Assembly (NCBI RefSeq): GCF_024298825.1
Contig: NZ_CP101153.1
Location: forward strand, 2,914,001-2,978,000
DNA from: Haloglomus salinum
Lineage (GTDB): Archaea; Halobacteriota; Halobacteria; Halobacteriales; Haloarculaceae
DNA length: 64,000 bases
Reading direction: 5' to 3'
The stretch's first letter is position 1. Each line of letters opens with the position of its first letter. The translations under genes and the position numbers were made by a program. Positions 46,006 to 51,225 of this stretch are shown here, in pieces. The notes under the pieces are model-generated. The model was not told the origin of the DNA, ran no database searches, and saw nothing but the letters and a program-made list of their open reading frames with translations.

Positions 46006-46902
46006 TTACGCGCTCGTCCGCTCGACACTGCTGATGCCCGCGTCGGCCTCGACCATCGCGACGACGGCCTCGCCGTCGTGTTCCAGGCGGACCCGCATCC
46101 GGGGTGGGTCCTCGGAGACGAGGTCGCCAGTCGGGAGGCCGATGTCCCCGAGCAACCACGTCGGACTGTGCCCGGTCTCGAAGCCGTGGTCGTAGAGGAA
46201 TCCCGTGACCGCCGGATGGAACATCGTCGGCGTCCCACCGGAGGCGGTCGCGATGCTTCCGCAGCGGTCGCAGGCGTACGCCACGTGCGCCGGGAGGCCC
46301 GCGAGTCGCTCCCCCTCCTCGTCGACGACGAGCCGGCCCTCCATCCGCCCGGCGCAGGTCTGGCAGAACCCGGCGGCGACCCCTCTCATGACGTGGCTCA
46401 TCCAGTGGTCGAACGCGAGCGGGAGTTCCTCGGGGTCGAACTGGTCGAGACTCCCCGGCGGGAACGCGAACTCGTTGTAGAAGTCCTCGCACTCGGTGCA
46501 GTCGACACGCGCGGTCTCCTCGGCGTAGGCCGCGGCGAGGTCGCCGCCACAGACCGGGCAGGCCCCGTCGACCGGGATGGTCTCCACCGTCGCGTTCGCG
46601 GTGTAGATGCCGGCGTACATCGCGCCGATGACCTGCCGGCCGGCGTAGGTCAGTTCGTACCCGTCGTCGGCCCGGCGGACGAAGGTCCCCCGGAGCTTCC
46701 CGAGGTGGTAGTTGAACCGGCCGCTGTCGTCGACCTCCGACCGGCGATGCAGTTCCGAGAAGGGGACGGGCTCGTCGGGCGTCTCGCCGAGCGCCTGCAG
46801 GATTCGCAGGCGGCTCTCGTCGCCCAGCAGCCCGAAGACCGCCTCCGGTGACCGTCGCTCGACGGTGACGGCGCCGCTACCGGTGTCGTACTCGCCACTC
46901 AT
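46006..46902 (-). CDS. winged-helix regulator with two zinc ribbons
   Basis: A 298-residue DNA-binding protein. The N-terminal ArsR-like winged helix at about 16-95 contains SRLRILQALGETPDEPVPFSELHRRSEVDDSGRFNYHLGKL (in part SRLRILQAL, GRFNYHLGKL) and a wing ending YELTYAG. Then come CPVCGG ... DCTECEDF (about 112-138) and CQTCAGR ... ACDRCGS (about 180-215), two zinc ribbons. The C terminus is a beta domain. This architecture is common in haloarchaeal transcription regulators of the ArsR/DUF7351 type. A TATA-like box at 46925-46930 and an imperfect inverted repeat lie just before the start. Targets unknown. Confidence 0.85.
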   Translation of the reverse strand: MSGEYDTGSGAVTVERRSPEAVFGLLGDESRLRILQALGETPDEPVPFSELHRRSEVDDSGRFNYHLGKLRGTFVRRADDGYELTYAGRQVIGAMYAGIYTANATVETIPVDGACPVCGGDLAAAYAEETARVDCTECEDFYNEFAFPPGSLDQFDPEELPLAFDHWMSHVMRGVAAGFCQTCAGRMEGRLVVDEEGERLAGLPAHVAYACDRCGSIATASGGTPTMFHPAVTGFLYDHGFETGHSPTWLLGDIGLPTGDLVSEDPPRMRVRLEHDGEAVVAMVEADAGISSVERTSA

Positions 46903-47014: not shown

Positions 47015-47869
47015 TCAGAGGTCGGCGCGGGCGAACCGGCCGTAGCCCAGCGCCAGCGGGACGACCAGCCACGCCGCGAGGACCGTCATGCTGGCCCAGC
47101 CGGTCAGGTAGAACGGGACCGGGCCAGCGAGCTGTGCGCCCAGCGCCGCCGCGGTCGCGGTGCCGTCACCGAGGAACCAGCCCAGTGCGTTCGTGTACGC
47201 CGCACTCGGCGTGACGACGTTCAGGAACGCCACCCACCCCGGAACCGTCGCGCCACCGGGCAGCGAGAAGCCGTTGACGACGAACAGCGCCGCCAGTGGG
47301 ACGATGTCCGCGAGGACCTCGAGGACGACGAACGCGCCGATACCGAAGGCCATCGCGCGGCCGCCGCTCCCCGTCGTAGCAGAGATGGCGACCATGATGC
47401 CGATGTAGACCAGCGCGAGGACGAGCGTCATCGCGGTGAAGACGGCGTAGTCGACGGGGGCGAACGAGTCGAACAGGACCAGTGCCACCACGAGCGTTAT
47501 GGCCAGGCCGACCACGATAGCCGCGCCGAGGACGGCGGTCCGGCCGACGAGCTTTCCGAGGACCACGTCCGCGCGGCTGTGGGGGAAGCCCAGGAGGAGC
47601 TTGCTGGAGCCGCTGGCGCGCTCGCCGGCGATGGACCCAGCGCCGACGACGATGGCGGCGATGGAGACGAACAGCGTCACCGCGCCGATGAGCAGCGTCA
47701 GGAAGCCGAGCGTACTCACCTCGCCGATGTCCTGGCTCACGGCCGGGACCGTGCCGTACAGCACCGCGAAGCCGACCGACATGAGGACGAACAGGCCCGT
47801 GACGGCCCAGAGGCCCCGCGAGAGGCGGGCGTCCCGGAAGTCCTTCCGCGCGACGACGGCCCAGCTCAT
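47015..47869 (-). CDS. ABC-2 type transporter permease
   Basis: A 284-residue permease with six hydrophobic segments at about 15-42, 62-90, 108-136, 140-168, 178-206 and 248-272, the NosY/ABC2_membrane_5 type. The pattern ARKDFRDARLSRGLWAVTGLF at the start and GAGSIAGERASGSSKLLLGFPHSRADVVLGKLVGR (in part GERASGSSKLLLGFPHSR) are typical of this exporter permease. It overlaps the ATPase gene by four bases (ATGA). Transported substrate is unknown; such exporters carry lipids, peptides, drugs or copper-related factors. Confidence 0.92.
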   Translation of the reverse strand: MSWAVVARKDFRDARLSRGLWAVTGLFVLMSVGFAVLYGTVPAVSQDIGEVSTLGFLTLLIGAVTLFVSIAAIVVGAGSIAGERASGSSKLLLGFPHSRADVVLGKLVGRTAVLGAAIVVGLAITLVVALVLFDSFAPVDYAVFTAMTLVLALVYIGIMVAISATTGSGGRAMAFGIGAFVVLEVLADIVPLAALFVVNGFSLPGGATVPGWVAFLNVVTPSAAYTNALGWFLGDGTATAAALGAQLAGPVPFYLTGWASMTVLAAWLVVPLALGYGRFARADL

Positions 47870-48843
47870 GCGCGCACCTCCGTGGCCTCGTCGTCGGGTG
47901 CTGGCGCGTCGGCCTCTCCCTCCGCGGGGGCATCCGGCGCGTCCTCGGTGTAGGCGGCGAACAGCTCCTCCAGCGACACCTCCTCGGTGTCGAAGTCGAG
48001 CAGGCGGGCGCCGGCGGCCTCGACCGCGGTGAGGACCGCCGTCTTCGCGGACTCCTCGCAGGCGACCGAGAGCTGGCCGTGGCCGTCCTCGCGGACGCTG
48101 GAGACGCCCTCGACCGCGGCGACCGCTGCGACGACCGCGTCGCTCACGGGCTCGACGGTGAGGGTGAGCCGGGCCTCGCTGCCCAGTGCGCCCCGCAGCG
48201 CGTCGATGGTGTCGACCGCGACGAGGCGACCCTCGCGGAGGATGCCGACGCGGTCACAGACTGCCTCGACCTGTTCGAGGATGTGCGAGGAGAAGAACAC
48301 CGTCGCGCCGCGGTCGCGCTCCTCGCGGATGATATCGCGCATCCGGCGTGCGCCGTTCGGGTCCAGCCCGGTCGTCGGCTCGTCGAGGACGAGGATGTCC
48401 GGCTCCCCCACGAGCGCCATCGCGAGGACGAGCCGCTGTTTCATCCCCTTCGAGAAGCCGCCGGCCGTCCGGTCGGCCGCGTCCGCGAGGCCGACGCGCT
48501 CGAGGACCGCGTCGATGTCGTCGGCCGCGTGCTTCGACGCGACCGCGAACTCGAGGTGCTGCCGGGCGGTCAGCCGGTCGTAGAGGTGGTAGCCGTCCGG
48601 GAGGACGCCCACCTGTCGCCGGACCGCCAGCGAGTCGGCCTGCGTGTCGTGGCCGAGGACCGTCGCCGAGCCCGCGGTCGGGCGCACGAAGTCGAGCAGG
48701 ATGTCGATGGTCGTCGACTTCCCGGCACCGTTCGGCCCGAGGAAGCCGAATATCTCGCCCTCCGCCACGGAGAGGCTCACGTCGTCGAGCGCGGTCACGT
48801 CGCCGTACCGCTTCGTTACACCGGTCAGTTCGATTGCACTCAT
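47866..48843 (-). CDS. ABC transporter ATP-binding protein
   Basis: A 325-residue ATPase of an ABC-2 exporter. Walker A GPNGAGKST is at residues 36-44, the signature GGFSKGMKQRL follows near 140, Walker B ILVLDEPTTGLD near 160, and the switch His is in FFSSHILEQVE. The C-terminal 90 residues are the usual DrrA-type tail followed by an acidic tail APEGEADAPAPDDEA-like. The ATG at 48843 lies 25 bases after an element shared with three neighbouring promoters (see 48868-48886), so the operon of this gene and the permease is probably coregulated with them. Confidence 0.94.
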   Translation of the reverse strand: MSAIELTGVTKRYGDVTALDDVSLSVAEGEIFGFLGPNGAGKSTTIDILLDFVRPTAGSATVLGHDTQADSLAVRRQVGVLPDGYHLYDRLTARQHLEFAVASKHAADDIDAVLERVGLADAADRTAGGFSKGMKQRLVLAMALVGEPDILVLDEPTTGLDPNGARRMRDIIREERDRGATVFFSSHILEQVEAVCDRVGILREGRLVAVDTIDALRGALGSEARLTLTVEPVSDAVVAAVAAVEGVSSVREDGHGQLSVACEESAKTAVLTAVEAAGARLLDFDTEEVSLEELFAAYTEDAPDAPAEGEADAPAPDDEATEVRA

Positions 48844-48867: not shown

Positions 48868-48886
48868 ATATAGCCACTCGCAGAAG
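48868..48886 (-). promoter_or_regulatory. shared promoter element, copy A (ABC operon)
   Basis: Read on the minus strand: CTTCTGCGAG, TGG, CTATAT. The hexamer ends 25 bases before the ATG at 48843. The first ten bases are identical to copies B and D. It differs from the others only in the TATA-like hexamer (CTATAT instead of TTATCT). Confidence 0.65.
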
Positions 48887-48943
48887 TCGGCTTCTGTGTG
48901 CGATAGCATACCACCTCGGTACCGTGCTGGCGACCGAAGACGG

Positions 48944-48962
48944 CTTCTGCGAGCCGTTATCT
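48944..48962 (+). promoter_or_regulatory. shared promoter element, copy B
   Basis: CTTCTGCGAG, CCG, TTATCT. The hexamer ends 25 bases before the ATG at 48987. Copies A and B form a divergent promoter for the ABC operon and the two-helix protein. Confidence 0.65.
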
Positions 48963-48986
48963 CCGCGTCCGACCTCCGACCCGTCG

Positions 48987-49310
48987 ATGACATCCGATAT
49001 CCACACCCGGCCCTCGTCGGCCGCCGACTCGCCCACCGACCGGGGCCTGTACCGTTTCGTCGCCGTCGTCGCCGGACTGTGGGGCGTCGTTCTCGCGTAC
49101 GGCGGGCTGTTGCTCGTCCGGACCGACCTCCGACAGGTCGTCGCCGGCCTCGTGGCCGATGGCCGACTCACCTCGGCCACGATGTCCGACGCAGCGCTGC
49201 TCGACGCCGCCCTCCTCGTCCAGCAGGTCGGGGGCGTAGTCCTCGCCGTGCTGGGCGTCGTGCTACTGCTGGGCGGGCTGGGGCTCGTCCTGCGTGGGCA
49301 GTCGGCCTGA
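48987..49310 (+). CDS. two-helix membrane protein, hypothetical
   Basis: A 107-residue protein with an N-terminal polar segment and hydrophobic helices at about 24-45 and 80-104; the intervening loop is DLRQVVAGLVADGRLTSATMSDAALLDAAL. No family is recognised. It is transcribed away from the ABC operon and carries the shared promoter element 25 bases upstream of its ATG. The context suggests a membrane role in the same system as the exporter and the protease that follow. Confidence 0.75.
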   Translation: MTSDIHTRPSSAADSPTDRGLYRFVAVVAGLWGVVLAYGGLLLVRTDLRQVVAGLVADGRLTSATMSDAALLDAALLVQQVGGVVLAVLGVVLLLGGLGLVLRGQSA

Positions 49311-49377
49311 ATCGGTTCGCTCGGGTGTCCCCCGGGGCTGTTTTGCGACGCCGTTCCGCAACTCGTACAGAACGGCC

Positions 49378-49396
49378 CTTCTGTGAGGGGTTATCT
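49378..49396 (+). promoter_or_regulatory. shared promoter element, copy C (CPBP protease)
   Basis: CTTCTGTGAG, GGG, TTATCT. The hexamer ends 24 bases before the ATG at 49420. One base (T for C) differs from copies B and D in the first ten. Confidence 0.65.
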
Positions 49397-49419
49397 CCTC
49401 GGTCGGCGTCCCCAGAGCT

Positions 49420-50184
49420 ATGGAGACCAACACTCGTACGGACCTCTCCGGAATCGACCCCACGACCGACGCACCGAGCCGCCTCCGCGCCGTCCTCTTC
49501 GCCATCGGTGTCACCGTGGGTGCCGCGCTGTACGTCCCGCTCGTGGTCGGCTCCGCGGCCGAACTGTGGGCCCTGCTCGGGAACGACGGCTTCCTCGTCC
49601 CGTTCGCCGTCGGCGGCACGCTCGCGACGATCTCGCTCGGCGCGATGGCGTACTACTACGTCCGCTACACTTCGCTGGCCGTCCCGGTCCGGCTCCCGAC
49701 GCGACGCGACCTGGCGTGGGTCGTCGTCGGCATCGTCGTCCCGCTGGCCGTCCAGATCGGACTCATCGTGGTCGGCTCCCGGTTCGGTGTCCAGCCGGTC
49801 GGCGGCGGTATCGATGCGGCCGCGGCCGCTGACCCCGTGCTGGTGTACTCGCTGGCGCTCGTCTCGGCGCTGTTCCTCATCGGCCCAGTCGAGGAGCTCC
49901 TGTACCGCGGTGTCGTCCAGGGCCGGCTCCGCCAGTCGTTCGGTCCCGTCGCGGCCATCGGCCTCACCTCGCTGGGCTTCGCGGCCGGTCACGTCGCGAC
50001 ACTCGTCTGGGGCGGCGGCGACCCGTTCACCCTCGGCTTCGGCCTCTCGCTGCTCGCCATCGCCTCTGGGTCGGTCGTCCTCGGTGTCGTCTACGAGCGC
50101 ACCGGGAGCCTCGTGCCGGCCATCCTGGCCCACAGCCTGTTCAACGGCCTCCTCCTCGCGCTGGCGCTGGCCACGGTACTCTGA
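49420..50184 (+). CDS. CPBP family intramembrane glutamic endopeptidase
   Basis: A 254-residue intramembrane protease of the CAAX-processing/bacteriocin-processing (CPBP, Abi) family. Hydrophobic helices lie at about 24-46, 60-80, 100-120, 142-160, 178-198, 205-225 and 233-252. The catalytic motif is PVEELLYRG with Glu158, Glu159 and Arg163; the second has GFAAGHVATL (His) and the third AILAHSLFNGLLL (His, Asn). Members cut prenylated proteins or peptide precursors in the membrane or give immunity to peptides. Its promoter has the shared element, as does the exporter operon. Confidence 0.9.
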   Translation: METNTRTDLSGIDPTTDAPSRLRAVLFAIGVTVGAALYVPLVVGSAAELWALLGNDGFLVPFAVGGTLATISLGAMAYYYVRYTSLAVPVRLPTRRDLAWVVVGIVVPLAVQIGLIVVGSRFGVQPVGGGIDAAAAADPVLVYSLALVSALFLIGPVEELLYRGVVQGRLRQSFGPVAAIGLTSLGFAAGHVATLVWGGGDPFTLGFGLSLLAIASGSVVLGVVYERTGSLVPAILAHSLFNGLLLALALATVL

Positions 50185-50306
50185 GGCGGTCCCCACCGGG
50201 GGTATCGGTGCACGGGGGAGAAACTGGTTATCTGGGCTCCAATTCATGTAGTTCGAGATTTTGTCTCATGGGGGTGATATTCGATAGCTATCGCCACAGA
50301 AAATAC

Positions 50307-50325
50307 CTTCTGCGAGCGGTTATCT
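50307..50325 (+). promoter_or_regulatory. shared promoter element, copy D
   Basis: CTTCTGCGAG, CGG, TTATCT. The hexamer ends 23 bases before the ATG at 50348. Together with copies A-C this gives four equal promoters in 1.5 kb. Confidence 0.65.
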
Positions 50326-50347: not shown

Positions 50348-50869
50348 ATGGTATCGAGACGACTCGCGGTGATTCCGGTGGTACTGCTCCTCGCGCTCGC
50401 GGTTGCGATGCTGGCGGCTGTGGGCACCGGGACCCCGGCTCCGGTCAGCACGCCCACGGAACCGATGCCGGGAACCACGCTCACCGGTGGGTTCCCCGAC
50501 GAGCCGACCGACGCACAGGTGACGACGTTCGTCTCCGGCGCGGGGGTCTGTGACCCTGCTCCGGCTGTCGCCGTGACGATGCACACGAACGCCTCCGGCG
50601 TGGTCACGCTGGCCGTCACCGGCGGCATCGCGACCGACGACGCCGCCCGGTTCGCGCCGCCGGCCGCGCTGACCGATCCCGTGCCCGGCGAGTACGTCCT
50701 CTGGACCTCGACGCGCGAGGACGAGGACCGCCAGCCGCGTCCGTGCGATGATGCGGGACACGTCCCGTACGAGGCGACCATCGAACTGCCCGCAGGCACC
50801 GAGCCCGTGACTCTGACCGTGATGCACGACGGCGAGGCCGCGGCGACGTGGGAGCACCCGGGCCCGTGA
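50348..50869 (+). CDS. exported or membrane-tethered protein, hypothetical
   Basis: A 173-residue protein with an N-terminal hydrophobic signal or anchor (LAVIPVVLLLALAVAMLAAVG, about residues 6-26), a Thr/Pro spacer and a beta-rich outer domain. Two cysteines (VCDPAP near 68 and PRPCDD near 137) could form a disulfide. The phrase PVTLTVMHDGEAAATWEHP closes it. No family is recognised. It shares the promoter element of the exporter and protease genes and overlaps the next gene by four bases (GTGA). Confidence 0.75.
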   Translation: MVSRRLAVIPVVLLLALAVAMLAAVGTGTPAPVSTPTEPMPGTTLTGGFPDEPTDAQVTTFVSGAGVCDPAPAVAVTMHTNASGVVTLAVTGGIATDDAARFAPPAALTDPVPGEYVLWTSTREDEDRQPRPCDDAGHVPYEATIELPAGTEPVTLTVMHDGEAAATWEHPGP

Positions 50870-51225
50870 CCGCCAGGTACCTGACGGCCCCCGGAGCGGC
50901 GACCGACCGTCGCCGTCTGCGCGACTACGTCGCCCCGACGGTGGCTACCGGCCTCGTCCTCCTCGGCCTCGCCGTCTCGACGGTCACGGCGAACACGGCC
51001 GTGACGATGGGCGAGGTCCCGGTCACGCTCCTCCCGGGTGGCCGGTGGCTCGCGGCGCTGGGCCTCCCGGCGCTCGTGACGGCCCGCGCTGCCACCGTGG
51101 GGCTGGCGTCCGGGCTCACCGCACGTCTCGCTCCGCGCTACCGCCTCCACGCGGTGGCTGCAGCCGGTCTGGGCTGGCTCCTGTGGGGTGTCCGGCAGTT
51201 CTGGGTGCTGCTGGCGCTGACGTAG
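50866..51225 (+). CDS. small membrane protein, hypothetical
   Basis: A 119-residue protein with hydrophobic helices at about 22-42, 52-70 and 95-118. It starts with GTG at 50866, overlapping the stop of the preceding gene (GTGA), so it is translated from the same transcript. Basic residues RRRLRDY before the first helix suggest the N terminus stays inside. No family is recognised; the context links it to the exported protein before it. Confidence 0.72.
   Translation: MTARYLTAPGAATDRRRLRDYVAPTVATGLVLLGLAVSTVTANTAVTMGEVPVTLLPGGRWLAALGLPALVTARAATVGLASGLTARLAPRYRLHAVAAAGLGWLLWGVRQFWVLLALT

Follow-up and report, generated by a model that had tools for sequence, protein, structure and literature searches.

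A putative dyad operator at four neighboring promoters of Haloglomus salinum and the candidate winged-helix regulator encoded beside it

Results

The 64,000-nucleotide stretch of Haloglomus salinum DNA considered here (contig NZ_CP101153.1, positions 2,914,001-2,978,000, forward strand; hereafter the window, with G000 as the label of the genome) contains an ABC exporter operon and genes for a two-helix membrane protein, a CPBP protease and an exported protein, each preceded by a copy of one 19-base promoter element, and beside them lies the gene for a candidate regulator with the Pfam domains DUF7347 and DUF7351 (Table 1). A first-pass annotation made from the sequence alone had put the element, which consists of CTTCTGYGAG, three bases and a TATA-like hexamer, at 48868-48886 (minus), 48944-48962, 49378-49396 and 50307-50325, and we verified all four positions and strands. 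The same annotation had the hexamer ending 23-25 bases before the start codons; the distance is indeed fixed, but its measured value is 22-24 bases at all four units.

Table 1. Coordinates of the cluster and its promoter elements, in positions of the window
Feature	Position	Strand	Remarks
Operator dyad 1 (CAGAA-N6-TTCTG), putative, ABC exporter operon	48881..48896	nearly the same on both strands	conserved in G001, G018
TATA hexamer CTATAT, ABC operon, 7 bp from dyad 1	48868..48873	minus	
ABC exporter ATPase (ABC_tran, DrrA-like C terminus)	47866..48843	minus	Pfam; start 24 bp after TATA
ABC-2 permease (ABC2_membrane_2)	47015..47869	minus	4-base overlap with ATPase gene; Pfam
Candidate regulator, winged helix DUF7347 + DUF7351, adjoins ABC permease	46006..46902	minus	Pfam, alignment, model, family covariation
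Operator dyad 2 (CCGAA-N6-TTCTG, one change), putative, two-helix protein gene	48934..48949	plus	
TATA hexamer TTATCT, two-helix protein gene	48957..48962	plus	
Two-helix membrane protein, 107 residues	48987..49310	plus	no Pfam match
Operator dyad 3, putative, CPBP protease gene	49368..49383	plus	
TATA hexamer TTATCT, CPBP protease gene	49391..49396	plus	
CPBP/Rce1-like membrane protease	49420..50184	plus	Pfam PF02517; orthologues 91% in G001, 51% in G018
Operator dyad 4, putative, exported-protein gene	50297..50312	plus	
TATA hexamer TTATCT, exported-protein gene	50320..50325	plus	
Exported protein	50348..50869	plus	family in three family genomes plus one marginal match
Membrane protein gene overlapping exported-protein gene, probably co-transcribed with it	50866..51225	plus	synteny

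The element is rare. The proposal that it occurs nowhere else in the window was borne out even when up to three mismatches were allowed, a tolerance at which dinucleotide shuffles gave a mean of 0.57 matches and reached four in 1 of 100 shuffles. The whole-genome scan that had been suggested, run like our other genome-wide scans as a pattern search, returned four exact matches in the entire 4.19-Mb genome, all inside 1.46 kb. Matches to the 19-base element with one or two mismatches across G000 showed no excess over a reversed-pattern control, and these were rejected as extra targets.

CTTCTGYGAG includes the right half of a 16-bp dyad, CAGAA-N6-TTCTG; a left half, CAGAA (CCGAA in one copy), stands upstream of every TTCTG. 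At all four sites in the window the spacer is six bases and the dyad ends 7 bp before the TATA hexamer. The ten-base unit recognized at first pass is thus real but makes up only half of the true element: YGAG is kept within this lineage and not in the wider family described below, where the dyad and the 7-bp gap to TATA are widely common. Among 13 sites from three genomes (G000, G001 and G018), the half-sites are near-invariant and the six spacer bases vary freely. The candidate regulator's own promoter has no dyad, which is compatible with repression and activation alike.

Dyad 1 reads nearly the same on both strands, the plus-strand reading being CTTCTGTGTG at 48891. On its plus-strand side, TGTGCGATAGCAT (48897-48909) recurs unchanged in G001 and in similar form in G018 (loci L073 and L074), and this side is perhaps a weak divergent promoter. 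Separately, about 6 of the 13 sites have GCTAYCGC, or a word close to it, 2-3 bases upstream of the dyad (48900-48907 and 50287-50294 in the window; also L073, L074 and L212).

The cluster, the regulator gene and the sites are found together in G000, in G001, which belongs to the same genus (CPBP protein 91% identical), and in G018, which belongs to another genus (ATPase 80%, CPBP protein 51%), and the regulator gene is syntenic with the cluster in both relatives. The first-pass annotation had named random placement relative to start codons, or absence of the element upstream of orthologues, as outcomes that would tell against it; what we found is fixed distances to the start codons and sites in both relatives that carry the cluster (L073, L074). 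The exported-protein family occurs in 3 of 146 genomes of the taxonomic family, one marginal match apart, and all three (G000, G001 and G018) carry the sites. Two further genomes of the genus, G002 and G003, have neither the exported protein nor true sites, and even their best matches to the CPBP protein and the regulator are distant. In both G001 and G018 the regulator gene is followed directly on its 3' side by an extra dyad, before a gene for a twin-arginine translocation (Tat) lipoprotein; the window has no Tat-lipoprotein gene at the corresponding place. In neither the G001 nor the G018 locus was a match to the two-helix gene found.

The candidate regulator has 298 residues and matches DUF7347 (109.9 bits) and DUF7351 (158.9 bits) over the Pfam cut-offs, with a weak additional match to HTH_20 (28.5 bits against a cut-off of 27). 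An AlphaFold2 model of modest confidence (mean predicted local distance difference test score 68) shows a winged-helix layout in which the predicted recognition helix comprises residues 60-70, SGRFNYHLGKL. With this modest model, a fold search found no full-length match that was informative, and the winged helix showed a weak resemblance to Sso10a and HxlR-type domains; a sequence search for relatives of solved structure returned only chance matches to ribosomal proteins. In the alignment, the DUF7351 part (residues 115-214) contains four CxxC pairs, which suggests two zinc ribbons and may point to a metal or redox signal. Homologues were matched in 88 of 116 genomes searched by protein, and the DUF7347 profile also matches Haloferax volcanii.

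We examined 12-kb stretches around 60 homologues together with the G001 and G018 clusters (62 loci). Exact dyads with spacer six numbered 25 in these loci, against 0-1 for any other spacer. With up to one mismatch allowed, 37 of 68 dyads sit 0-250 bp 3' of the regulator gene, and 22 of the 62 loci have a dyad just 3' of it; the link between dyad and regulator gene is strong, if not universal. In the 60 homologue loci, whenever two dyads lie within 100 bp of each other (16-17 pairs), the distance between them is exactly 28 bp. TATA-like words are most frequent at +7 from the end of a dyad, where 23 of 57 distinct dyad ends have one when both directions are counted. A search by DNA pattern only found tandem dyads with the 28-bp spacing in 122 of the 293 genomes scanned in the order, compared with 2 for a reversed control; a DUF7347-type gene ends within about 20 bp of the nearer dyad in 17 of 30 tandem loci listed. 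No partner dyad is present 28 bp upstream of the window sites (5-9 of 10 half-site positions mismatch at -28), and the window cluster is a single-dyad member of this apparent regulator-operator family, whose operator we define as CWGAA-N6-TTCWG.

Judging by promoter position, the targets in these loci are exporters of the MFS_3 type, an S9 peptidase, many small membrane proteins that belong to no family and, at a single-dyad site in G018, a DUF4260 protein. Some sites deserve separate mention. In L156 (6708-8828) the gene behind a tandem operator codes for an S9 prolyl oligopeptidase and not for an exporter. G000 itself has a tandem CTGAA/TTCAG dyad at G000:C1:697603-697646 (L180, L293), before a small protein gene and 1.9 kb from a paralogue of the DSA type (see below). 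In L240-L250 and L270-L300, many CTGAA/TTCAG operators precede genes for membrane proteins of 70-110 residues with no regulator gene nearby, and the proteins from these loci that were submitted to Pfam gave no family. Two further exact dyads in G000, at 1406509 and 2225967, were considered as regulator-linked targets and rejected, as neither 3-kb locus contains a regulator gene.

The residues just before FNYHL, which fall at the start of the modeled helix, track the outer bases of the right, TATA-proximal half-site. In a discovery table compiled by hand, which includes close relatives and at least one locus twice, DSG was paired with TTCTG, DSA or DST with TTCAG, and DPG with TTCTA; the fourth base was A with DSA or DST in 7 of 9 cases and T with DSG in 24 of 25. 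A prediction was recorded before 40 further loci were fetched, at a point when their operator sequences had already been listed and their regulator genes had not. The rule held at 16 of the 17 loci with a same-strand regulator gene upstream: 8/9 for DPG-TTCTA (the odd protein had TTCAT), 5/5 for DSA-TTCAG and 3/3 for DSG-TTCTG, where one of the five DSA cases (L293, in G000) has its regulator 1.9 kb off. The remaining 23 loci fall outside the scope of the rule as worded, 19 having no regulator gene in the stretch and four (L278, L282, L291 and L292) having one downstream or on the opposite strand. The window agrees with the rule, combining a DSGRFNYHL helix with TTCTG half-sites.

Discussion

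The dyad, its conservation, the promoter geometry, the association with a protein family and the covariation between helix and bases were all shown computationally, and on them we base a working model, which we think is probably correct, that the element is the operator of the neighboring DUF7347-DUF7351 regulator and that this protein likely activates the four promoters. The symmetry of the site suggests a homodimer, which would set its recognition helices into both CAGAA/TTCTG half-sites. With 22-24 bp from TATA to ATG, we take the transcripts to be leaderless, as expected for haloarchaeal genes; on this assumption the dyad would lie at about -54 to -38, against the transcription factor B recognition element (BRE) and 7 bp from TATA. 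Bound there, the dimer would most likely help TFB and TBP to bind, and so switch on the ABC exporter, the CPBP protease, the small membrane protein and the exported protein. We favor activation because the fixed spacing between dyad and TATA resembles that of activators such as TFB-RF1. The DUF7351 domain, which has four CxxC pairs, is probably the sensor, and what it senses may be a toxic compound or membrane stress.

Several observations weigh against this model. A site that touches the BRE could also serve to repress, and the BREs could not be demonstrated to be weak, as recruitment of TFB would lead one to expect, seven other promoters of the window having given no BRE consensus. The link to the regulator gene is incomplete, as 40 of the 62 loci have no dyad just 3' of the gene, and the loci of the closest homologues that lack the cluster (G031, 61%; Halorubellus salinus, 57%) contain no dyad of this kind with TATA. 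As for the helix-base rule, a DSG protein shares its stretch with a TTCAG site in L278, L282 and L291, which contradicts the rule if the two are cognate, and the difference between DSA and DSG in the discovery table (P = 5e-5) is indicative only, since that table contains related loci and a duplicate; Fisher tests ignore relatedness among loci. Finally, G000 encodes a further seven homologues, of which four have DSG helices, and one of these could bind the sites instead or as well.

Taken to its conclusion, the last point would make the neighboring gene a bystander and one of its paralogues the main binder, an explanation to which the similarity of dyads between paralogues also lends itself. 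We regard it as unlikely, given that the neighboring gene keeps its synteny with the cluster in both G001 and G018, each of which carries the further dyad directly 3' of that gene. Repression by the same regulator at the same operator has a better claim, and we see it as a possible, if less probable, arrangement: the dimer would cover the BRE edge and block TFB and TBP until an inducer releases it. Ligand-released repression is common among efflux-pump regulators of the ArsR, MarR and TetR families, so that an exporter target, together with a dyad abutting the BRE, would fit this arrangement. Repressors need no fixed spacing, however, and a constant 7-bp gap to TATA, like the 28-bp tandem, points to contact with the initiation complex. 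Just upstream of BRE/TATA is also where the archaeal activators of PMC5937170 bind.

The first-pass annotation had invoked either a dedicated regulator or a special TFB acting just upstream of the TATA box, and only the former is supported. The element does occupy the position of a BRE, and haloarchaea possess several TFBs, one of which, or another general factor, might read CTTCTGYGAG as an extended BRE. We consider this very improbable because the site is a dyad, as expected of a homodimeric winged-helix protein, whose outer bases covary with DUF7347 helix residues; furthermore, YGAG is lost outside the lineage where the dyad is kept, and only four sites exist in the genome. Chance, or the recent duplication of a single promoter fragment inside the cluster, might also account for four copies in 1.5 kb. 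This is hardly credible, since spacers and flanks differ among the copies while the half-sites stay constant, and the half-sites are kept at orthologous promoters in another genus, where the proteins are 51-80% identical.

The further claim of a small undescribed regulon held up, in that the regulon is local, has four sites in the genome and has a candidate regulator whose Pfam domains are unmentioned in the literature searched, which was limited by licence. Earlier work may use other names for DUF7347 and DUF7351. The regulator family, the promoter geometry and the helix-base code appear to be undescribed; winged-helix regulators with dyad operators, as a kind of system, are known already.

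Relatives of the regulator across haloarchaea have a switch of this kind and of unchanged geometry beside them, which seems to govern export pumps (ABC and MFS) and small membrane proteins. A broader proposal, on which our opinion is evenly divided, is that DUF7347-DUF7351 proteins form a large haloarchaeal family with a helix-to-base code and a stereotyped tandem-dyad promoter (28 bp, with 7 bp to TATA), that they activate exporters and small membrane proteins, and that paralogues are kept apart by one or two outer half-site bases. Operators are known for few archaeal regulators, and for still fewer activators; here a widespread family gains a predicted operator, promoter geometry, targets and specificity code, all of which could be tested in a genetically tractable haloarchaeon. 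If the proposal is true, regulons could be read from sequence, and the family would offer a natural set of distinct archaeal switches.

There are precedents for several parts of this model. Efflux regulators of the ArsR/HTH_20 type offer a possible parallel, in that the candidate has an HTH_20 match barely over cut-off, a winged-helix layout in the model of modest confidence and a gene beside transporter genes; it differs from them in its C-terminal DUF7351 domain with four CxxC pairs, in an operator that abuts an archaeal core promoter and in a promoter of its own without a dyad. GvpE, a leucine-zipper-like protein, is of an unrelated type and has a different site sequence. It is a haloarchaeal gas-vesicle activator, cited in PMC5937170, which likewise acts just upstream of BRE/TATA and interacts with TBP and TFB.

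Another close parallel is TFB-RF1 (PF1088) of Pyrococcus furiosus, which acts from a palindrome immediately upstream of BRE/TATA to turn on an ABC-2 exporter (PMC5937170). Activation is proven there and proposed here, and we liken the two proteins by their sites and targets only. The operators are distinct, TCTGAA-N1-TTCAGA having a spacer of 1 and CAGAA-N6-TTCTG a spacer of 6, and the window sites do not match the TFB-RF1 operator; the passages of PMC5937170 consulted do not mention a 28-bp tandem for TFB-RF1. Nevertheless, the half-site letters are similar, TCTGAA/TTCAGA in TFB-RF1 and CTGAA/TTCAG in some haloarchaeal paralogues, and, according to that paper, the TFB-RF1 palindrome lies at a conserved distance from BRE/TATA, an ABC-2 drug-type exporter whose ATPase is DrrA-like is among the targets of TFB-RF1, and its small regulon is conserved within its order.
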